DNA from: Acanthochlamys bracteata
Taxonomy: Eukaryota; Streptophyta; Magnoliopsida; Pandanales; Velloziaceae
DNA: 64,000 nt
NCBI GenBank assembly: GCA_019914995.1
Contig: CM034143.1
Span: 436,501 to 500,500 of the forward strand
Reading direction: 5' to 3'
A program made the translations under genes and the position numbers. Position 1 is the first letter of the stretch; every line of letters begins with the position of its first letter. Of the stretch, positions 22,289 to 39,838 are shown in pieces. Under the pieces are notes generated by a model. It was not told the DNA's origin. It made no database searches and was given only the letters and a program-made list of their open reading frames with translations.

Positions 22289-22328
22289 CTAAATATACTT
22301 CGTAAGATGAAGCAACTCGAATTAGAAA

Positions 22329-22577
22329 GGTGTTTGAAAGTATTTATAAAATAAAATTTTTCTGATATAAAAAATATTTTTATTTTTTTAAAAAAATAAA
22401 TTCTATTTTTTATTTTTAAAATATAATAAAATATATAATAAAAAAAATTTATTTCGTAAAATTTTTTATATTTTCTAAATTTTTAAATAAATTTTTTATA
22501 TATTTATAAAATATATATTAAAAAATATAAAATAAAAAAAATTAAAAAGCAGCTTTTGAAAATGTAAACCAAACGCG
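22329..22577. mobile_element. Candidate MITE, GYGTTTG-ended AT-rich element
   Basis: The left end reads GGTGTTTGAAAGTA followed by TTATAAAATAAAATTTTTCT; the right end reversed reads GCGCGTTTGGTTTACA. The interior is AT only. Copies or relatives occur at 30531, 32671, 41224, 52981, 53291 and 63733. Confidence 0.5.
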
Positions 22578-27646: not shown

Positions 27647-29730
27647 ATGTAAGAATTTGATTTATCCTACATTTAGATTCAATTTGTTGTTTAATTAGAA
27701 CAGCATTGGTTTAGATGTGGTGAACTGCAATTTGAATTGTTATTTTTAGTATGAGTAATTGGATCTAGCTCTCCGTTTCTCTTTAGAGCAAGTGTGAATG
27801 TGGCACTAATGGTTGCACATTTGTTTCGATTTTGTTTTGGTCCCTAATCGAAACTATAAATTGTTTGCGGGAGGTATATTAAAGTAAAATGCTGAGTCTT
27901 CTTGTTTCTCCTTGAAATGTAGTATTTGGTTCATTATGATGTAACATGTAGATGTTTATTTTAAATATTTATGTATGTTTTGATTCGACCATGCTATTTT
28001 GTGATGGAACAAAGACATCTATGTAGGATGAATTTTTAGGACTTCGATTTTTTAGTAAATGCCAATTTCATAAACATGAGGCTGATTGATTACTAGCAGA
28101 AAGTACAGGAAAGAGAGTGATTCAATGTCCAAAGTTCTTATTCTGCTTCAGCTTTACTTGTTCTCAAGTTGAATGAATCTTAGTTGGTGTTGTCATTTCA
28201 TACTCTCAAATTGTCATGGTATGATATATATTGGCTGAGTTGCTACTTTTGACTCAAATACTAAGCGTAGGTAGTTTGCTTCCGAACTCAGGGCAGATGA
28301 CGAAGTTGTAGATCCTAAAAAGCTTATTGAGGAACGCTGCAAGCCGAAATGTGTGAAGCCCCTGTATGCATATTTGGTAAGAACATCTGTACTAGTTTCT
28401 TGATCGAAGACTTGTTTAGTTTGTGTCATTGTACTTATTAATGCATACTACTTTTGCTATTCTATCTGGTATTGATGCAACCTAGAAGTCATATTGGAAG
28501 GGCTTTTTGGGTTTACTATCGTTGTCTTTCAACCTGTATTACTATTGGTCAAGACGTTAAACTCATAGTTAGATAGTTGGCAGATGTATGAAGGTGCTGC
28601 ACTTATGAAACCCAGTACTTAGTTGATATTTCTGTGTAATCATATCATTTAATGCTGTTTCTACTGAACTTGTTTGAAGTTATTTTACATATACCAACTT
28701 TACTAAATGTTTTTCGACATTTTATCTAATCATGTTCTCTTGAAGGTGAATATATTACCATGATGATAATAATTTTGCATTACTTAAATATGAACATTGT
28801 TTCAACCACTGTTAATCTGTATAAAGTTGGTAAAACTATTTAGTAAGGGGCATGCTTAAAAGATCATGGCTAGAGATTTAGGTTGTCAGATTCAGCCAGT
28901 GACGTAGACGAAATGATAATGTCTTGTAAATTGTTTCTTCCAAGTAAATAGACTTCATGTGTATAATTGAGGTTCAATTTATTTTGTTTGGAACTCTAAA
29001 ACGCATCAAGTTGCTTTTTCTCCTCTCAATTACATCAAGTGATTATAGTATCATAACAGTTCTAGTGCAGCAATTGATTGGTATATGTAAAATGATCTGA
29101 AGCATAGTTTCAACTCTCACACCCCAATATTTGGTTGTGTTTTAATTTTGGAAAGTTGGCTTCTTGTGGCTGACCCTTTTTATGTTTGCTACTGCTTGTT
29201 GTGTCTTTGTAGTTATTGTGTGACTTGCTGTTTGTACCTTTATGGGTGGTTTTCATAAGATTACTTATAAATCAAGTCACAAGTCATCCTGAATAGTTCA
29301 TCTTTCAACCAATTAGATGCTAGTGATGTCACAATCTAGTAACTACAGAATAAGGTTGTTAAGATATTGCAAAGGTTAACCTCTTTGTCTATTGCCAATG
29401 GTGAATGTTCTTGTGAGCTTTTAAAGAACATTATGCTCGTTGTGCTTGCTGATTATGTTACTTACAGGAATGTACCAAGAGAATACAAGATGATGACACT
29501 GGACACAAGCACTGTACTGGCCAGTACTTTGATTATTGGTCGTGTGTTGACAAGTGTGTAAGTATCTTTTTTGACGAAATCCTTCTGTATCCTTTCGCGA
29601 GTTTATCATCACAGGTTTCTGAAGTTAGAATAAGCCTAGTGATAGAGTGAAAATATGCCTACCGGATCTGTGCTGAGGTTTTTCACTTCAATTGCAGGTT
29701 GCACCTCAGCTATTTGATAAGCTGAAATGA
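27647..29730 (+). CDS. QCR6: Cytochrome b-c1 complex subunit 6 (hinge protein)
   Basis: A small acidic subunit of mitochondrial complex III on the intermembrane side, near cytochrome c1. Exons are 27647-27648, 28292-28376, 29468-29557 and 29698-29730, giving 69 residues: MADDEVVDPKKLIEERCKPK, then CVKPLYAYLECTKRIQDDDT, then GHKHCTGQYFDYWSCVDKCV, ending APQLFDKLK. The paired cysteines that form the hinge disulfides are conserved. The first coding exon holds only A and T of the ATG; the G comes from exon 2, so the start codon is split by a 643-bp intron. The family N-terminus MADEE supports this start. The next in-frame ATG is not in the conserved region. Confidence 0.93.
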
Positions 29731-31563
29731 GAGTGTACTCTTGAGTAGCTGCTAATAACTGCTGGTCAGATTCTGTGTTGTTTTTTGTAGTTATGCCATG
29801 CTTGTTTGATCAGTAAAATTTTCCAAAAGACACAAATATTTCCTTTCGCCGTACTTCTCATTTTGATCGGTTTGATGGTTAGAACCACTCACCTTGCTTC
29901 ATAGAAAATTGTTGAATTCTTAAATTTATCTCACCCAAAAACTTCCTAAATGCATAAAATATTCTCCGAAGTATCAAATGTGGATGCACTGAATGTTGCC
30001 CTAGTTACCTGGTTGATTCTTCTGCTTGGTCTCTGCATTATATTGATCGTATGTAGAGAATGTTATATATTTTATTTTTGTGATTCTGCAATATGTTCTG
30101 CACTTATATTGGATATCTGGAAGCTCTGAGGAGTTACCAGAGACTGTTATGATGGCTCGATCTTTCGGGCTAATCTTCTGTTTAACCAAAACGCAGATGC
30201 ATTTAGTTTTAATATTGATTTCAAATAATAGGTTTTATAAATAGTAGTTATTATTAAATTACATACTATTCGGAAACATGATTGTATCTGCTTGAAATGA
30301 GTACATAAATTGTCATCAAACAAATTCGGACCATGGTGGCACCCGCTCCGAATCAGATTCAAATAAGATTAAATCATGGCGGCTGCTGGCCTTGGTTATT
30401 GAACTATTGTTTTGGTTTTTACAGGTTACCAAGCTATAATTTATTTCTTCGGCAACGTATAAGACCACTATAGAAGAAGAAAGAAAAGAACGCACGATCA
30501 TCTATTGAAAGAAGCATCATATTTTTTTGAAGCATTTGATAGTACTTATAAAATAAAATTTTTCTAAAATAAAAAATATTTTTATTTTTTTAAAAAATAA
30601 GTTTTATTTTTTATTTTTAAAAAAGTAATAAAAATATGTAATAAAAAGATTTTATTTCATAAAGTTTTTTTAATTTTTTAAATAAATTTTTTATAAATAA
30701 TTGATAAATAATTTTTCATACGCTGTGCTAAACATACCCAATAGTTCAAAATGAACTATAATAAAGTGTTTCAAATACAAATACATGAGTTTTACAAAAA
30801 TAATAAATCAAAAGTAAATTTTTTTTAAAAATAAATTAAAAAATAGAATTTAGTTTTATATTCTAATATTTTTTTTAAAAATAGAATAAAAAGAAAGTAT
30901 AATAATTTTAAATTTTAATTTTAAATTTAATTTGTATTTGAAAGTGGTAAACGTCTGGTCGTTGGCTAAATAAAACAATCAATCTTAGTCAAGTCATGAC
31001 TTAAAAATACCCGACTGTTATATTTTCCAAATTGATAATTGCGAAGAGGTGAACGGTTGTTACGAGTTCTTATCCGTCAAAATTGCGTGTTTCGTAAGCC
31101 CATAATTTTATTTTTTTATCAAATTTAAAGTTTTAAATATTATATACATTTTATTTATATAAGAAATTTAAAATTTTAATTATATATATATAATTTTATT
31201 TCTAATTTTTTTATTTATACATCTATAAATATAATTTTATCTTAATTATAATTCATTTTCAAAATTATTAAAATATAAAAATTAAATTTTATTTAATTAA
31301 ATTTAAAAAATTATAATTTATATAATTTATTTTTTAAAAATTTAATTACGAGTATTTAAAATTCGCAATAATCACCGATCAATTATTGGAAACTGATAGA
31401 GCGAACTTATTAGTAGTTGAAGGGGGAAAGGCTAGCTATAAGCTATAGGTTAGCTCGCTGCATGTACAGAGAGAGTAAGGTAACGAGTTGAGTTCCCGGC
31501 TAGTAGCTACTAAAGTTTCTGGACTGACTGTATCGATCTTTGTTTATCTATTATTGCAGATCG
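29731..31563. other. Intergenic with upstream part of duplicated block
   Basis: QCR6 3' UTR, then from about 30375 sequence homologous to 33875 onward (duplicated block 1), an AT-rich element at 30531-30738 and further AT-rich DNA to 31360. A TATTGCAG acceptor at 31559 just before the MGC start suggests a leader intron. Confidence 0.5.
30531..30738. mobile_element. Candidate MITE, GYGTTTG family
   Basis: The left side reads AGCATTTGATAGTACTTATA with AAATAAAATTTTTCT following; the right end reversed reads GGGTATGTTTAGCACAG. The interior matches the element at 22329. Confidence 0.45.
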
Positions 31564-32016
31564 ATGGGCTGCACGGGATGCGAGCCTTTCTTGATTACCG
31601 CCTTGATGCAAGGGTTCACAATGGTGACGCGTTGCTTCCAAAATAGAGATCATCGGAACGGCGGGCAAGGTCATCGCCGTCGGAGTCAAGACAACTACCC
31701 GCAGAGACCTCATGTGAATATGGTACATATTGATCACCATCCTCAAAACGTGACTTTTGTTTTACAGTTAAGAGGGTCGACGTCTACGGAAACCGCCCGT
31801 CGCCGGTCTACGGAAACCACTGCTCGGCGGACAAAAGAGTTAAGAGGGACTAGGGAAACCACTCCTCGGCCGATAAAACAGTCAAGAGAGACTACGGAAA
31901 GAACCCCTCGGCGGACTTCGGAAACCACTCCTCGGCCGATAAAACAGTCAAGAGAGACTACGGAAAAAAACCCTCGGAGGCCTAGGGAAACCCCGCCTCG
32001 ACGGACAAGACATTAA
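31564..32016 (+). CDS. Unrecognised small basic protein, MGC family copy 1
   Basis: 150 codons. The start follows a likely leader-intron acceptor (TATTGCAG, 31559), and the same ATG context is kept in the second copy. The protein begins MGCTGCEPFLITALMQGFTM. Gly2 and Cys3 could be myristoylated and palmitoylated, but this is inference. A hydrophobic stretch follows to about residue 24, then a His/Arg/Gln-rich middle. The C-terminal half is strongly basic and repetitive, with ETT, RRT and PRPIKQSRETTE units from a 66-bp tandem repeat. I do not recognise the family. Homology to 34977 and 36532 supports a real local gene family. It is not shown that this copy is expressed. Confidence 0.5.
   Translation: MGCTGCEPFLITALMQGFTMVTRCFQNRDHRNGGQGHRRRSQDNYPQRPHVNMVHIDHHPQNVTFVLQLRGSTSTETARRRSTETTARRTKELRGTRETTPRPIKQSRETTERTPRRTSETTPRPIKQSRETTEKNPRRPRETPPRRTRH
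31855..31986 (+). repeat. Two 66-bp tandem units inside MGC copy 1
   Basis: Units 31855-31920 and 31921-31986; the first 46 bases of each are identical. The length is a multiple of three, so 22 residues are repeated in frame. Flanking shorter GGAAACCACT/CTCGGCGGAC units suggest older expansion. Confidence 0.85.
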
Positions 32017-32670
32017 TCGTCCGTCGGCGGACGGTTAATATATTTCGACCCGTACGCAGTTTCTTCAAATGGAGATGGAAATTCTTCTTTCACCGTGTGA
32101 GTGCAGTGTGTAATTTATTACATATATATATAATTTGTATTGCTTGCTATATATGTCCATTACAACTGTTTTAAGTCTAGTTGTAAAATTTGATTGCGTA
32201 CCATCTCACTGAGAAAGTTTGCAAAACTTTAGAGCGTTTTATTTTATTTATATATAATTTACTCTTTTTATTAAAAAATAAATTTGTATATTTAGTTTTA
32301 TACACTTAGTTTTTAGAATTCAGTATGTATTGCAACAATCAGCTCAAAATATATGCACTTTGATTTATTCTGAATCTTTTTTCTATTTTTTAAATATTAT
32401 TATCCAATTCAAAATTGGTACCATCTGAAGACATCTGCATTACAAGCATTTTCCACTAACCCAACTACCTGAGAATGTTGCATGCATGTTATCACATCTA
32501 GCTTTGAAGTGTCGTGGGGTTACAAAATCTATAATTCAACTTGACAGGTGGAGTCTTCTTTTTCTTAAACTTGTTACTAGCATAACAAATAGGCCAAAAT
32601 AGGAAAGATATTATCTTTTACATTGCTTTTACAATCCAGTGTCCATCTATTGTTGATAATGGCATGATGA
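32017..32670. other. 3' flank of MGC copy 1
   Basis: Homologous to the 3' flank of copy 2 as far as about 32260, then AT-rich DNA. No other feature was recognised. Confidence 0.45.
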
Positions 32671-32932
32671 GGGTGCCTTTGGTGCGGCTTATAAAAATTT
32701 ATTTATTAAAATTTTTTTTATTATATATTTTTTAATATATATTTTATAAATATATAAAAAATTTATTTAAAAATTTAAAAAGTATAGAAAAATTTTACGG
32801 AATGAGATCTTTTTATTATATATTTTTATTATTTTTTAGAAATTTAAAAAAAAATAGAACTTATTTTTTAAAAAAAATAAAAATATTTTTTATCTTAAAA
32901 AAATTTTATTTTATAAGCAATTTCAAACGCCC
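32671..32932. mobile_element. Candidate MITE, GYGTTTG family (inverted relative to 22329)
   Basis: The left end reads GGGTGCCTTTGGTGCGGCTT and the right end reversed reads GGGCGTTTGAAATTGCTTAT. Both continue into ATAAAAxTTxATTT. The inverted ends are clear, the interior is AT-rich, and no target duplication was identified. Confidence 0.55.
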
Positions 32933-32987
32933 TTTGTAGTCTTCAACTCTTCATAAGGGATGAACTTACTGATTGTCCTTATTGCAG

Positions 32988-33294
32988 GTGCCTCTTCAAA
33001 TACCCAGTCTGCAGGCAAAGAAACTAATAGGCATGCATCATCTAAGCACCAATACCCCAGCAACCAGCTGGTAAGGTTTAGCTACATGGATTTAATCTCC
33101 ATATCAATATTTTTTTTCATTTACATGGAATGTTTTAGGCATGAGATACAACTTTCCAAGAGCTTCCGCTTGTAGGTCGTTTGCATTCCTTGTTGCAGGC
33201 CCAAGAGTATGAGATCTACCATATTAAGCTTTTCTTTACTAGTGATCCTCGTAAGAATAAGTGGATAACAACTGCAACCTGGATGAAGAACTGA
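32988..33294 (+). pseudogene. Possible two-exon gene relic
   Basis: A stretch with an acceptor (TTGCAG, 32987) and donor (CTG|GTAAGG, 33070) reads ASSNTQSAGKETNRHASSKH then QYPSNQL. A second stretch after TTGCAG at 33198 reads AQEYEIYHIKLFFTSDPRKN then KWITTATWMKN and stop. The splice signals and normal codon-like composition are suggestive between two repeat-rich blocks. A second frame is also open in the first stretch. The family is not recognised. Confidence 0.2.
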
Positions 33295-34250
33295 GGGGCT
33301 TGATAGCATCTACTTGCTAGATGAAGTTATCCAGTTGGTTGATCTGCACAGTTAAAGTAAGGACCTTCAGATTCAATCTCCAGATCAATTTTTTAAAAGA
33401 TTTTATTGATTGATCAAGGATTCAAGGTATAAATATTACACGAAGATAATTGTTCATACATTTTAATTTGTCATTGGTAACTTCTTAGTTTTCTGTTTTC
33501 ACTTGTTTCAAATATCATTCAATTCTATTTTCACCAAACTCTATTTTTACTAAACTTTATTTTTATAAAATTTAGTTTTGCGAAAATCAGTTAAACACGA
33601 CTTATATAATATAGGCATAGTCAAACTTATTCAATTTTGAAGGCCGAGTATAGCCATAAAGTTTGTATGTAGCGGCACTGATCAGTCTCTCTAATCACAG
33701 ATAAATACAAACGGCGAGGAAAGCATCTGCACCGTGCGTTCATAACAAGAGAAAATTTTCAAAGAATATCTAATACCTATCACAATGCACAGAGAACAAA
33801 CGGTAGAAATTGAAGGCGTACGATGCGTGCGTTTACACAACTAGCCGGCTTCTATTTCCCACTACAACTCCCAATACGGCTGCTGCCATTGGTTAGTTGG
33901 AATATTGTTTTTGTTTTTACATTTCCAAGCCACAATTTATTTCTTCGGCAACATATAAGAGTAAGACCACTATATTATTTCTCAAATAAATGCAAGCCCA
34001 TTCTTTCTTTTACAAACAGTAAATCAACACTGTATAATTTTTACTATTAGATTGATATTGAATCAAGACATAATTTTCAACTATTAGATCAAATAAGCTA
34101 AAACAAAATATAATTTAACTATTTGATCATTTAAAAAATCTCTGGTTAGGCTCTATTGAAAGAAGAAAGAAGAACATAAATCTATCCATGCAGAAAAAAT
34201 CATATTTTATTCAGTAGTTCAAAATGAGTGTTTCGTCATGCCTTGATTTA
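33295..34250. other. Spacer and upstream part of duplicated block 2
   Basis: Low-complexity and unique sequence, then from about 33875 homology to 30375 onward. No gene was supported. Confidence 0.4.
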
Positions 34251-34535
34251 GGTTACGTTTCAAGTTGGTGTAACTTTATTTTCTTTCATCAGAATTAAAA
34301 TTTTATTAATTTTTTATATTTTAATTACAAATAAAATTAAAGATTCAAATTTTCAGTTCTACACAAATAAAATTTAAATTTTATTATATATATTTTTTTA
34401 AATTCACTTCCAACTCACTTTAAAAATTAATTAAAATATAAAAATTAAATTTTATTTCTAATTTATTTTTTAAAAAATTTAATTTTCTATTTTTTATTTT
34501 CACATAATTTAGTTTCACCGACTTGAAACATGCAC
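34251..34535. mobile_element. Tourist-like MITE with TTA target duplication
   Basis: The left end reads GGTTACGTTTCAAGTTGGTG and the right end reversed reads GTGCATGTTTCAAGTCGGTG, 15 of 20 positions matching. TTA flanks both ends (34248-34250 and 34536-34538). The interior is AT-rich and non-coding. The size and TTA duplication fit a PIF/Harbinger-derived MITE. Confidence 0.65.
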
Positions 34536-34582
34536 TTAGCGCATAAGCTTAAAAAATATTTAAGAACATAAGAGAATTTTCC

Positions 34583-34740
34583 AGTTGACAATTGTAAAGA
34601 AGTGATTGGTTCATATGGGCTCTTACGTGTGTTGATAGCTGTTACCTTACTAGAAGTTGACAATTGCGAAGATATGATTGGTCCTATGAGCTCTTACGTG
34701 TGTTTTAACTTGCAGTTAGTCGAAGTTGACAATTTGATAG
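34583..34740 (+). repeat. About 70-bp direct repeat with W-box cores upstream of MGC copy 2
   Basis: The segment GTTGACAATTG...GATTGGT...GCTCTTACGTGTGTT occurs at 34584 and 34656, with a third partial GTTGACAATTTG at 34725. Each unit contains TTGAC (W-box core), an ATTGG (inverted CCAAT) and ACGTGTG. Block 1 has a diverged single copy near 31035. A role in promoter function is inferred. Confidence 0.6.
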
Positions 34741-34976
34741 CAACAGGCAACCAATTGGAATCACAGAGCAGCTATATTAAAAGGGATTGAAGCGAGGGTA
34801 CAGAGGAAGAACGAAAGGAAGTGAGAGACGGGGGACAAGGAAAAGAAGAGTCGATCAGGTTCGACGATCGACGAAACGAAATCCGGATTTGGCCGAAAAA
34901 GTGCCATCCTCGTACTGATAGTCAGATTCAAGCAAATTCTGGTTTCTCCGTCTGTATTGATCGTTATCTCTTGACG

Positions 34977-35207
34977 ATGGGTTGTGGTTTTGAATATCTC
35001 ATCTTGGCCCCCAGAATAATTTTACGCTGCTTTGGAACCAAAGGAAAAGATAGTTCGAGAGAAAACAACCCATAGCAGGTTGTGATAGATGTCAAACTCA
35101 AACAAAAGGTGTATATTGTAACAAAACGCCTCAAAGAGACTGCGCAAACGGTTCGTCGGCGGACAATACAGAAAAGAGGTATCGAAACGACCCGTCGCGC
35201 AGAGTAA
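34977..35207 (+). pseudogene. MGC family copy 2 with in-frame TAG
   Basis: It begins MGCGFEYLILAPRIILRCFG and runs 32 codons to an in-frame TAG at 35073-35075, preceded by SSRENNP. The same frame then stays open for 43 codons: QVVIDVKLKQKVYIVTKRLK, then ETAQTVRRRTIQKRGIETTR, ending RAE and TAA. Copy 1 has HPQNV where this copy has NP-stop-QV, so TAG may come from a CAG or CAA codon by one change. The C-terminus keeps the basic RRT/ETT character of copy 1. The frame is also open upstream to 34821, but the MGC start is favoured by homology. I see no plausible intron that would remove the stop. Confidence 0.5.
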
Positions 35208-36531
35208 GTTAATATATTCACACAGTCGTACGTAGGGCCTACATATATTTCGACAAGAGAATTGGATCATGCAGTTTCCTTCAATTGGAGATGGAATTAT
35301 TATTGCTGTAGGGCCTACATATATACTTTGTACTGATTGCTATGTCATCCCTTGATCCTGTTCCTGTTGTATTTCAACTGTTTTCAATCTGACTACAGAA
35401 TCTGATTGGATGCTGTTGAGAAAGTTTGCAAAACTTTAAGCGTGTTTTATTTTGTCGATAATTTATTTTTTATAAATAGAATTTTTATATTTATTTTTAT
35501 AAACATAATGTTTAATAATTTATTTTTAAAAATTTTACTTTAAGAAACTTAAGTTATCACTTGCTGTTTTTTTATATAGAGAAAATATCAAATACAAATT
35601 TTTTTATTTTTTAAAAATAAATTTTAGTTTTTATTAAAAAATTATAAAATAAATAATTACAAAATTTGTAATATAAAATTAATGTATTTATAAATAAAAT
35701 CTTATAATTTTATAAAAATTATTTAAATATAAAATATTTTTATGAAATAAAAAACGAAAGAGAAGTTATTCGAAAATTTCCAAACAAACTTAAGGAATTA
35801 TTTGGCAACGAAAAACAATTTTTTAATTTTCTATTTCATAAATTTAAACAAAATTTTTACAAATTTTTATAAAATTTATCTAAAAATTAAAAAAATATAT
35901 ACGTAATTAAATTTATTATTATTAAATTTATATATTTTAAATAAAAATAAAAATTTATTTTTTAAATATAATAAAAATATTTTTAAAAAATTACTTCCAA
36001 ATATCCGTTTTAACAAACGTATCGCGCACTGTTGACCGACGATAGAAACACTACTTGCTTCAAACTCGAATAAACTTTTCAGTAATCCTCGATGATCATA
36101 CGATATGGAACGCACGGTTGGTCGATCTCAAGAAGAATCATATCTTCTTGACGGCGTCCATAACATCGACGGACTAGCCTAGCGAATTAAGGCGTTAAAA
36201 AGCCAGAGCGAAAGGCGAAGCAGCAGACTGCTGATTATTCTCTTTATATTTTTGGGGCTAATATGGGACTTCATAAACCATGATAAAGTTTATCAAATCA
36301 CTGGAGATTAATTCTCATTGAAGTCATAATTACTACGTTAGATCTAAGAGAAGATAACAATTATTTAAACTTTATTTAAATTTAGAAAATACTTTTTTAT
36401 TTAGTAAGCGTTTTAGTTATTATTTATTTTTTTAAAATTAAAAAATAAAACTAATTTTTTATAAAATAAACATATTTTTTTAAAAAAATTATTTAAAAAA
36501 TATTTTCAAATGTTCCTCCTATCTATTGCGG
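35208..36531. other. 3' flank of copy 2 and AT-rich spacer
   Basis: Homology to block 1 continues to about 35455, followed by AT-rich blocks (35570-35790, 35820-36000, 36360-36510). A segment near 36105-36150 (GAACGCACGG, AAGAAGAATCATAT) resembles the start of block 1 near 30487. No other gene was seen. Confidence 0.4.
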
Positions 36532-36696
36532 ATGCGTTGCACAGTGTGTGAGTCTTTGTTGTTTACAGCCTTGGTGAAAGCGTGCAATATTAAAGTTATA
36601 CTATGCCTTCGTTACAGGGATCGAACGGGCAAGATCGCCATCGGGGAGAGGACAACCACCGGCCGCTTACAAAAATTTATAACATTAAATTTTTAA
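36532..36696 (+). pseudogene. MGC family copy 3, truncated
   Basis: A 54-codon frame starting MRCTVCESLLFTALVKACNI that aligns with MGCTGCEPFLITALMQGFTM of copy 1. It continues with RDRTGKIAIGERTTTG and then runs into AT-rich DNA at about 36668, where homology stops, and ends at 36694-36696. Position 2 is Arg, so the glycine needed for myristoylation is missing. DNA-level similarity to 31545-31700 covers about 140 bases. It is probably a broken copy cut by an AT-rich insertion. Confidence 0.5.
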
Positions 36697-37112
36697 TAAA
36701 ATATTGTTAAAAAGTTTTTTAATTAAATATTTTTTAATTTTAAAAATAAAGATAATTAATGTTAAAATTTATTCAGAATTTTTTTATATTTTAAAAAATA
36801 AATATTATAAAATTTTATTAAAAATATAAAAATAGTCAAATTAGAAAGCACTCGGAAAATATCTAGCGCGTTTTGTCTCACGTCAGTTTCCATGTAAATT
36901 AGATGCAAAACAATTAGTTCGTAGCATTTCTTTGCAACCATCTCTTTATAATCTATGCTGCAGATTCATCTATTTCTTTTGTTATTATTACGAAAGGGAT
37001 GTGATGAGATCCTTGAAAAATGTGTACAAATGAAGGCCAACTTCTACTCGAATACCTCAGATTTGCTAAAACCAATCGCAGAAGCCTCATTTTTTATTAA
37101 TAAAGTAACTTA
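36697..37112. other. AT-rich spacer and F-box promoter
   Basis: AT-rich to about 36840, then more complex sequence leading to the F-box gene. No promoter element is called. Confidence 0.4.
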
Positions 37113-38471
37113 ATGTCCTTTTTGCAAAATGCGCCGTCGACACGAGCTACAACAACAAGCAAAGCCAGAGAACACTCAGAGCAGCGACGACTTTCTCCTC
37201 CTTCTTCATCCTCCTACTTTCTCGACGCACAAACAAATCCACTGATGTCCACCGAATCGCCGCCGTCGTTAACTGTAATAGAAAATCTAACGGCGTCAGA
37301 CGACAACAACAGAGCTCCGTTATACTCTCTTCCACAAGACGCTGTTCACAACATCATTGGCCGTTTATCTCTCCGTCAAGCTCTTTCTTGTTCTGTTTCC
37401 TGCCGTTTTTTCCGTGACGCAATTTCTTCTCCTCCGTTTCCTTTCCGTCTCCCTCCGTTGCCGCTCCTCGCTCTCCGTCACCCCCGTTTCCCTTCCGTTA
37501 TCCCTCCGTCTCTCTTCGTTCTCGATCCAACTGATCTTCGCTGGCTTCGAATCCCTCTCTCGTTTCTCCCACCTTTCGTTTCCCCTCCTTCACCCGCTTC
37601 CGCTTCCCCTTCTCTTCTCCTGCTCTGGGCTGACGTTTCCCATCCCGTATCTCATTCCGTCTCCCGATCCCTCGTTATCTGTAACCCGTTAACAAAATCT
37701 TTCCGTGTTCTTCCGCCGTTAGGATCTGCCTGGTCCCGTCACGGCACGGTTATCGCATCGCCTGACGGCGGAGCGATCGTGTTAACCGAGCTTGCCGCGC
37801 TGTTATATTCACAGGAATGTCATTCGTGGCTTAAATTTTCCCTCAATTTGCCTTCGAAGCCCCGATCGCCGATATTGGTTTCGGGTGAAATCTTCGCTTT
37901 ATGTGATGTAGGATCACCGTGGCGAAGCCAGTGGAAGATGTTTTCTTGCCCAGTAAAAGAGCTAGGGCGGTTGCCGAGGCGGCCTTGGGCACCTCTTGAT
38001 CGGCCTGAATGGGGTGATGTGTTTGACATACTAAAGAGGCCACGGCTTGTGCCAGGTGGGGGAAGCTCTCGGATTCTAATGATCGGTGGATTGCGGTCTT
38101 CATTTGCTGTTGATTCGCCATGCTCGACGGTGCTGATTCTGAGATTGGATTTGAAGTCAATGGAGTGGGATGAGGCCAGTCGGATGCCTGAAGATATGTA
38201 CCGTTGTTTTATTGGCAATTGCAACGGAAATGGCAATAACAATATCAACGGAAATGCTCCTGGCATGGGGCAAGGCATTAACAATAAGGTGAAGGTGTTT
38301 GGTGGTGGTGGGAGGGTTTGGTTCTCAGGGAAGAAGGTGAAGGGGAAGTTGGCAATGTGGGAGGAGGGGGGACCGGGTGGCATATGGAGGTGGGTCGCAG
38401 GGTTGCCTGGGTACAATGAAGGGGTCTACAGGGGTTTTGTATATGAAGCTGGATTCATGGCCATACCTTGA
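37113..38471 (+). CDS. F-box protein (F-box/kelch-like, single exon)
   Basis: Probable substrate adaptor of an SCF ubiquitin ligase. A single open frame of 452 codons. The F-box is at about residues 70-106 (LYSLPQDAVHNIIGRLSLRQ, then ALSCSVSCRFFRDAIS), where it would bind an ASK/Skp1 subunit. The rest has Trp- and Gly-containing strands (WADVSHPVS, LVICNPLTKSFRVLPPLG, SSRILMIGGLRSSF) like the kelch/galactose-oxidase-type C-terminal domain of the UFO/LCR-related F-box group. A low-complexity NGNGNNNINGN insert lies near residue 370. A Met at residue 45 (37245) could be the real start, since residues 1-44 are Ser/Thr-rich and unconserved in appearance. Its substrate is unknown. No intron is needed. 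Confidence 0.85.
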   Translation: MSFLQNAPSTRATTTSKAREHSEQRRLSPPSSSSYFLDAQTNPLMSTESPPSLTVIENLTASDDNNRAPLYSLPQDAVHNIIGRLSLRQALSCSVSCRFFRDAISSPPFPFRLPPLPLLALRHPRFPSVIPPSLFVLDPTDLRWLRIPLSFLPPFVSPPSPASASPSLLLLWADVSHPVSHSVSRSLVICNPLTKSFRVLPPLGSAWSRHGTVIASPDGGAIVLTELAALLYSQECHSWLKFSLNLPSKPRSPILVSGEIFALCDVGSPWRSQWKMFSCPVKELGRLPRRPWAPLDRPEWGDVFDILKRPRLVPGGGSSRILMIGGLRSSFAVDSPCSTVLILRLDLKSMEWDEASRMPEDMYRCFIGNCNGNGNNNINGNAPGMGQGINNKVKVFGGGGRVWFSGKKVKGKLAMWEEGGPGGIWRWVAGLPGYNEGVYRGFVYEAGFMAIP

Positions 38472-39838
38472 TTTGAGATCATGCAGGTACGCTGTGCTCT
38501 TACCCTGTGACTGTGGTGTACTTCTCTTTCGCAAAATTTTGGTTTTCTTACTTTTCATTGTTGTTGGTGATACTATATAGTTCTTAAGTAGCTGATTAAT
38601 ATTGTAGTGATTTTGTTGTGGGCAGCCATTGATGTCACTTCCTACGTGAAGCTCGCAGATTGCCCTTGTATCCTACTTTGTATAGAAAATGACGTTTTAC
38701 TTTTGCCACTTCATAAGAGATCTCCTTTCAATTAGGTGATTGCTGGGTGAAGTTCAAACGATTTAATTAAGAGATGTTCTTATACATTAAAGTATTTCGA
38801 GGTTGTGAATGAGGAGGAGAGACGTTGGCAAGTTGCATCTTTGTTACCTGATTTTCTAAGTTCCAATTCGTAGATGAGCTATTCTGAGGTTTTACCAGAG
38901 GATGCAATAGTGCATACATTCAAAACTGTGTTATTCCTTTGTATTAGTTCTTTTTAGTTCAGAATACCCTTTAGTTCTTTTTAGTTCAGAATACTATATA
39001 TTCAGAACAACATAAATTCTCTTTGAATATATTTGATCATCTAAAGTATAAATGCAGAGTCCCGTCTAGTTCTTTTTCTCTGATGCAATGCCTTCTAATA
39101 CCTTACTTAGCTGCAATACTACTGGACCCCACAGTTGGTGCATGCTCTTTCATGTGGAAAGTTGCATGATTCTTTTACGAAAGTGTATCCCCCTTTGGTA
39201 GAGGTTCTCATCGTTCACTCTGGTGGGTTTGTCTTGTCAAAGTTGCTAGTCATTAAATGATAGCATACATCTGAACATCTGTCAATCTACCAGTATTAGA
39301 GCCCCTTTTCCTATTACCGATTTTCAACTCAAGCCTTTCGCCAAAGTGATCTCTTTCTCAACAATGTGTTTTTCAAGTAGTGCATAGACGCGCAACGTTT
39401 GACCTTAGCATAGCCAAGCTGGTGGGTATGGCTATGGTAACGATACTTGTCTTCCTTTTAGAGGTACACTATAAGGTTGCATTTCTCATATAAACCTTCT
39501 GATTTTGATGAATGCATTGCAGGAGTTTGATGCTTAGCATTTTTTTCACCTGCTTGTACTTCATGATGAATCAGATTCTTTGCTTAGTTTCTTTCATTGC
39601 TGCATCTATTTTTTTATGCGCATATACTCCAGTGTAAAGTTGCATGTAATTGCTCTTAGGTTTTCACATTTTGAAAAGCAGTAGGCAGCCCCTGCGTTTG
39701 TTGTTGGTGGATAGAACAAAAGAAACAACAATTTAGACCTTATCCTCATTTTACCAAACTTATCTAGGTATTGTGCTTGCTGAAGCAAGCTTAGCAAGGT
39801 ATCTTGGTTGTTTGTTTAAGCTACTCTAGGGAGGTTGC

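Follow-up and report, generated by a model that had tools for sequence, protein, structure and literature searches.

The stretch of DNA analysed here (the window) comprises 64,000 nucleotides of the nuclear contig C18 of Acanthochlamys bracteata (positions 436501-500500; the assembly amounts to 195.5 Mb in 557 contigs). Near its middle lies a small array of three related blocks, at window positions 30380-32315, 33877-35514 and 36531-36660, each with one copy of a short frame that starts with an ATG on the plus strand. A preliminary description of this DNA had read the array as the local duplication of an undescribed small gene family; the three ATGs (31564, 34977 and 36532) and the three protein starts that it quoted were found to be correct when the sequence was read again. 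The copies and their shared flanks are as follows.

31564..32016, plus strand: copy 1, a 150-codon open frame for a protein of pI 11.7, with a short N-terminal part containing Cys and hydrophobic residues and an Arg/Thr-rich repetitive tail
34977..35207, plus strand: copy 2, stopped after 32 codons, with a like tail that continues in frame up to a TAA
36532..36696, plus strand: copy 3, a 54-codon frame whose protein is like that of copy 1 for about 33 residues, is then frame-shifted and runs into AT-rich DNA
30380..30464, plus strand: 5' block A of copy 1, 86% identical to 33877-33960 (E 1e-21)
31022..31072, plus strand: upstream (promoter-side) block of copy 1, 75% identical to 34576-34625 (E 0.01)
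32056..32315, plus strand: 3' flank of copy 1; within it lies a 22-base stretch that the genome contains twice
35271..35514, plus strand: 3' flank of copy 2, with ordered matches to the flank of copy 1

Relatedness of the three copies

A global MAFFT alignment misaligned copies 1 and 2, and local alignment was used instead. DNA scores were judged against 300 first-order Markov sequences, and protein scores against 1000 shuffles, in each comparison. Outside the frames, copies 1 and 2 share the 5' block (score 122 against 20.3 +/- 3.2), the upstream block (46 against 18.9 +/- 3.0) and the 3' flank (165 against 33.0 +/- 5.8), the last in two matches, 32056-32080 with 35271-35296 (92%, E 0.001) and 32159-32315 with 35371-35514 (73%, E 1e-16). 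From the first to the last, these ordered matches span 1.94 kb and 1.64 kb, in agreement with the 1.6-1.9 kb estimated previously. Among the coding sequences, that of copy 1 is clearly related to that of copy 3 (83 against 17.2 +/- 2.7) and also to that of copy 2 (46 against 21.3 +/- 3.2, simulated maximum 41); the score of copies 2 and 3 with each other was not significant (22 against 18.6 +/- 3.1).

The protein comparisons gave the same picture. The N-terminus of copy 1 scored 58 with the copy 3 protein (shuffles 21.1 +/- 4.6, 0 of 1000 reaching the score) and 36 with the copy 2 protein ahead of its stop (18.7 +/- 3.7; 1 of 1000), and the tail of copy 1 scored 44 with the copy 2 protein beyond the stop (30.3 +/- 5.3; 15 of 1000). 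There is no direct likeness between the proteins of copies 3 and 2 (16 against 18.9 +/- 3.8, equalled in 835 of 1000 shuffles). Copy 2 is thus placed in the array by flanking matches and by its likeness to copy 1, rather than by direct likeness to copy 3. The tail of copy 2 beyond its stop is basic, and its TAA ends at 35207; in copy 3, alignment with copy 1 puts the frame shift after about 30 codons, where it arises from small length differences. Block alignment and frames thus support a local duplication in which one copy is open and the other two are broken. The context of the ATGs, also said to be shared, is so in part only, position -3 being T in copy 1, A in copy 2 and C in copy 3.

Searches for a family and for further copies

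Copy 1 could not be assigned to a family. Its best match was at E 0.28 in Pfam (10.8 bits, cut-off 27) and at E 0.1 among the PDB sequences, and NCBIfam returned nothing to E 0.01. To cover all three copies, 33 stop-free pieces of at least 30 codons, three of them starting from ATG, were taken in six frames from 31380-32120, 34930-35260 and 36010-36700; none of the 33 exceeded the Pfam cut-off (best E 0.023). The weak matches, Sugar-bind (0.28), DAG1 (0.28), Ribosomal_L34e (0.12), RK-1-like defensin (0.033), Acyl_CoA_thio (0.037) and SVM_signal (0.023), were judged to be due to chance. An Rfam scan of 28000-38500 gave a single hit, at 28870-28902, under the gathering score and outside the array. 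The absence of a described family therefore holds for the libraries searched (Pfam, NCBIfam, PDB sequences and Rfam). A literature search by titles and beginnings of abstracts, rather than by sequence, yielded nothing on this sequence.

Within the genome of the species, the copy 1 protein as query retrieved itself and nothing else, and so did the copy 3 protein. A DNA search with 31300-32300 returned 41 matches (40 of 98 candidates were scored): apart from the query and the 3' flank of copy 2, these were 39 short matches, none of which extended beyond the AT-rich 75 bases at the start of the query. With 34580-35450 we found the query and two places on contig C40 (all 3 candidates scored). When up to 2 mismatches were allowed, the whole 195.5-Mb assembly contained the 22-base stretch at exactly two places, the 3' flanks of copies 1 and 2, and the reversed control contained none. 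As the coding parts have no near copy elsewhere, the array is not a high-copy repeat. A match to a transposon or common repeat had been suggested as a check on the gene family; dispersed copies were not found in the own genome, with a sensitivity limited to the extent that the protein searches did not link copies 1-3 to each other.

A collinear interval on a second contig

The genes of the window include an F-box/Kelch gene (Pfam) and other frames that we take to encode actin and ribosomal proteins. The window was also compared with contig C16, 60 kb of which are collinear with window bases 1-63410, in the same order, with gaps and a few off-diagonal matches. The paralogous interval itself was placed at C16:394340-441416, with the whole window collinear. 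The two intervals look like the remains of a past genome duplication or large segmental duplication. The F-box genes of the window and of C16 are 86.6% identical in DNA, with dS 0.47 and dN 0.05 over 411 codons. One non-coding feature of the array is present in both intervals.

33688..33960, plus strand: blocks X and A, 5' of copy 2, with a counterpart next to the F-box gene on C16

The two blocks are 76% identical to C16:414182-414434. On C16 they lie about 500 bases before the F-box gene, and in the window they are now about 3.2 kb from it; the X-A block is a candidate conserved upstream element of this gene. In block A the equal bases number 66 of 74 between copies 1 and 2, 60 of 71 between copy 2 and C16, and 56 of 70 between copy 1 and C16 (414365-414436). 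The closest pair being copies 1 and 2, the local duplication appears younger than the genome duplication, although the block is too short to settle this.

The coding parts gave no match to the 60 kb of C16 in AT-masked blastn at E 0.001. The best tblastn match to the interval had E 0.41, a relaxed blastn search gave one 29-base match (E 9.9) in the 741-base island of copy 1, and alignment of this island with the C16 interval scored 22 against 23.2 +/- 2.7. By these comparisons the paralogous interval has no detectable copy of the array.

As a separate observation, the non-coding block 33688-33960 is 77-85% identical to C16:414180-414450, above the level suggested by the synonymous sites of the F-box gene.

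Coding capacity of copy 1

Two further features belong to the structure of copy 1.

31480..31559, plus strand: possible intron of copy 1, AAG/GTAACG ... TTGCAG/AT, its splice sites judged by eye from sequence
31784..32013, plus strand: internal repeats of the copy 1 tail, at offsets of 24, 42, 66, 108 and 174, all multiples of 3

According to the alignments, the splice acceptor of the possible intron is not retained in copies 2 and 3. Evidence for coding comes mainly from the comparison of copies 1 and 3. Over 27 aligned codons pS was 0.67 (12 of 18 sites) and pN 0.29 (18 of 63 sites; Fisher 0.005), and this synonymous excess was equalled in 12 of 2000 random placements. In the 17 most surely aligned of these codons the other two frames showed no synonymous excess (pS 0.09, pN 0.29 and pS 0.23, pN 0.28). 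The dS between copies 1 and 3 was 0.65 over the 17 codons and 1.65 over the 27. A frame of 150 codons in the 741-base island occurred in 0.35% and 0.2% of 2000 sequences simulated with two Markov models. In the non-repeat part the ATG frame had the highest codon score of the six (-0.03, the next being -0.09), as measured with a small reference set. Taken together, this suggests coding for the first 27 codons of copy 1 and not for the repetitive tail. Whether copy 1 is, or recently was, a coding sequence under selection seems to us evenly balanced on this evidence.

Predicted product

If translated, copy 1 would yield a very basic 18-kDa protein, with a short N-terminal helix carrying cysteines and a probably disordered Arg/Thr tail; the last 80 residues contain 20 Arg and 20 Thr. 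AlphaFold2, run on the single sequence, placed a helix at residues 7-29. The model was weak overall (mean pLDDT 57.5, pTM 0.20), with a block mean of 78 at residues 11-20 and of 71 over the C-terminal ten residues, the remaining blocks lying at 47-61. A helix with a basic tail of this kind would fit the binding of an acidic partner, possibly an acidic surface of nucleic acid or membrane lipid, a role that we regard as doubtful.

Lipidation of Gly2 and Cys3 had been proposed as a means of bringing the basic tail to a membrane. Myristoylation and S-acylation call for Gly2 and for permissive residues 3-7, and dually acylated MGC N-termini occur in PBS1-like kinases and in proteins of the CBL/SOS3 type. 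The N-termini here are MGCTGCE (copy 1), MGCGFEY (copy 2) and MRCTVCE (copy 3). The start MGCTGC of copy 1 resembles such proteins; in contrast to them, Arg replaces Gly2 in copy 3, and Glu occupies residue 6 in copy 2 and residue 7 in copy 1; the Pfam scans of the copies returned neither a kinase nor an EF-hand match. Gly2 and permissive residues 3-7 are not common to the copies, and we have dropped this interpretation because the required residues differ among them.

A mitochondrial insert in copy 2

The upstream region of copy 2 contains DNA from another source.

34786..34930, plus strand: nuclear copy of mitochondrial DNA, an rps3 piece (34786-34901) joined to a second piece (34899-34930)

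The rps3 piece is 90% identical over 116 window bases to C40:325-446, and the second piece 100% identical over 32 bases to C40:54366-54397; the two have 3 bases in common at the joint. We infer that C40 is mitochondrial from its long S3 frame and its gene order: a 545-codon S3 frame (Ribosomal_S3_C, E 8.6e-20) overlaps an L16 frame (E 1.6e-24), presumably the gene order of the mitochondrial genome. The insert, of 145 bases, lies between the TATATTAAAA stretch (34773) and the start codon of copy 2, and it occupies the position of the possible first exon and splice donor of copy 1. Nuclear integrants of mitochondrial DNA are a known class (PMC7037861), which the two joined pieces of high identity upstream of the copy 2 start resemble; unlike a gene transfer, what is found here is a fragment within a decayed gene copy.

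The rps3 frame is open from 34791 through into copy 2 as far as its stop, for 94 codons; this openness is probably due to chance.

Origin of the array

The array is real, and the birth, duplication and decay of such genes is of an already known kind. The reading that we prefer is that a small, fast-changing, lineage-restricted gene, or a recent former gene, was duplicated locally and that copies 2 and 3 decayed, and we would put its chances at about one half. The duplication would have taken place beside the F-box gene, on one of the two intervals of the genome duplication. Copy 1 would have retained its open frame, copies 2 and 3 would have decayed, and in-frame repeat expansion would have enlarged the Arg/Thr tail; transcription of copy 1 may start from the duplicated upstream region. 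It is also possible to imagine a more detailed course, in which the gene was born in one interval after the genome duplication, used the older X-A block as promoter and was then copied, one copy losing its function with the mitochondrial insertion near the transcription start, but we consider this unlikely.

Several observations weigh against the preferred reading. Of the 27 codons that show the synonymous excess between copies 1 and 3, the remaining 9-10 are less securely aligned, and the 17 surest codons alone give no significant result (pS 0.43, pN 0.23, Fisher 0.27). None of the 5 internal comparisons of the tail repeats revealed a synonymous excess, and the longest repeat pair, with pS 0.13 and pN 0.26, gives no sign of protein-level constraint; a conserved basic tail was thus not borne out. 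As these repeats are in frame, they inflate the length of the open frame of copy 1, and the 73 codons ahead of them fall under the simulated 95th percentile (98-101). The codon score of the whole frame (-0.11) is slightly above that of a reverse frame (-0.14) and below that of the F-box gene (0.07, a member of the reference set). The putative transcript has another ATG, at 31462, ahead of the copy 1 start. The dS between copies 1 and 3 is at or above that of the F-box paralogues. Finally, as the protein searches failed to link copies 1 and 3, similarly diverged copies elsewhere could have been missed.

Much of this would be expected if the local duplication were non-coding, intergenic or transcribed, and the frame of copy 1 had arisen by chance and been lengthened by in-frame tandem repeats. 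An origin of this kind is a real possibility, albeit short of probable: it agrees with the unconstrained tail, the non-repeat frame inside the simulated range, the broken state of copies 2 and 3, the lack of a domain or family in the libraries searched and the weak single-sequence model, and it is at odds with the synonymous excess over 27 codons, with the corresponding (itself not significant) excess over 17 codons in the ATG frame only, and with the best codon score of this frame in the non-repeat part. The dS between copies 1 and 3 would rather suit an old gene family, in an array that predates the genome duplication and was lost from C16, with relatives that are too diverged or outside the libraries. 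Failure of homology detection is indeed a general alternative for lineage-specific genes (PMC7660931). We hold an old family to be improbable, as copies 1 and 2 are more alike in block A, short as it is, than C16 is to either of them, and no remnant of the coding part was seen in the C16 interval. The AT-rich repeats all round the array, among them one with a very high number of copies, might point to a transposable element or dispersed repeat; with coding-part searches that return only themselves, a copy 2 region that matches itself and mitochondrial DNA only (3 of 3 candidates), and a 22-base 3' stretch whose two occurrences in the genome are both in the array, such an origin is very hard to credit.

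On the preferred reading of a lineage-restricted gene, the closest comparison is with the orphan genes of plants, a reviewed class (PMC9305701). Copy 1 resembles them in being short, without a family in the libraries searched, seen at a single place and accompanied by decayed local duplicates, a likeness judged here from the own genome. Should copy 1 prove to be a real gene, the locus would be a compact case of birth and decay with a built-in comparison; a few relatives could then show in what order the promoter was recruited, the frame opened and the gene duplicated. Otherwise, the locus shows that in-frame tandem repeats can yield a convincing open frame. The value of the locus lies in its well-kept paralogous interval, in which no copy is detectable.

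Other features of the intergenic interval

Beyond what the preliminary description contained, the analysis found the mitochondrial insert, a probable RING relic, a high-copy repeat and the collinearity with a C16 interval in which no copy was detectable. The intergenic interval is unstable, having also gained mitochondrial DNA and the high-copy repeat.

36013..36196, minus strand: part of the copy 3 5' flank, probably the remains of a RING-H2 gene, aligning with C16:412723-412906
32664..32935, no strand assigned: high-copy AT-rich, MITE-like repeat between copies 1 and 2, with a second copy in the window at 22326-22543

The stretch 36013-36196 scored 76 with its C16 counterpart (against 22.1 +/- 2.5). 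The tblastn match (E 3e-14) of C16:412569-412909, on the minus strand, to a protein of contig C3 falls into two frames; this protein is zf-RING_2 (E 2.8e-15), its frame open for 209 codons; the C16 stretch has PTYRKC at the place of PTCRQC in this relative. The window stretch has no direct RING match of its own, so that its identity as a relic, which we consider probable, rests on the C16 counterpart. A 79-codon frame on C16 that looked gene-like at first turned out to be the reverse strand of the RING-H2-like stretch, with no Pfam match. The sequence 30488-30530, downstream of block A, resembles the flank of copy 3 (40 against 18.2 +/- 3.2) and shows no match to the RING-like stretch of C16.

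Two exon-like stretches were noticed at 32980-33300 (cag/GTGCC...CTG/gtaag, and a short open frame ending at 33291). They have no Pfam family above the cut-off and no likeness to the C16 interval or the left flank; in the genome search of this region the scored places were taken up by the adjoining repeat. For this repeat, at 32664-32935, 40 of 4636 candidate places were scored, and the 39 best others were 86-92% identical.

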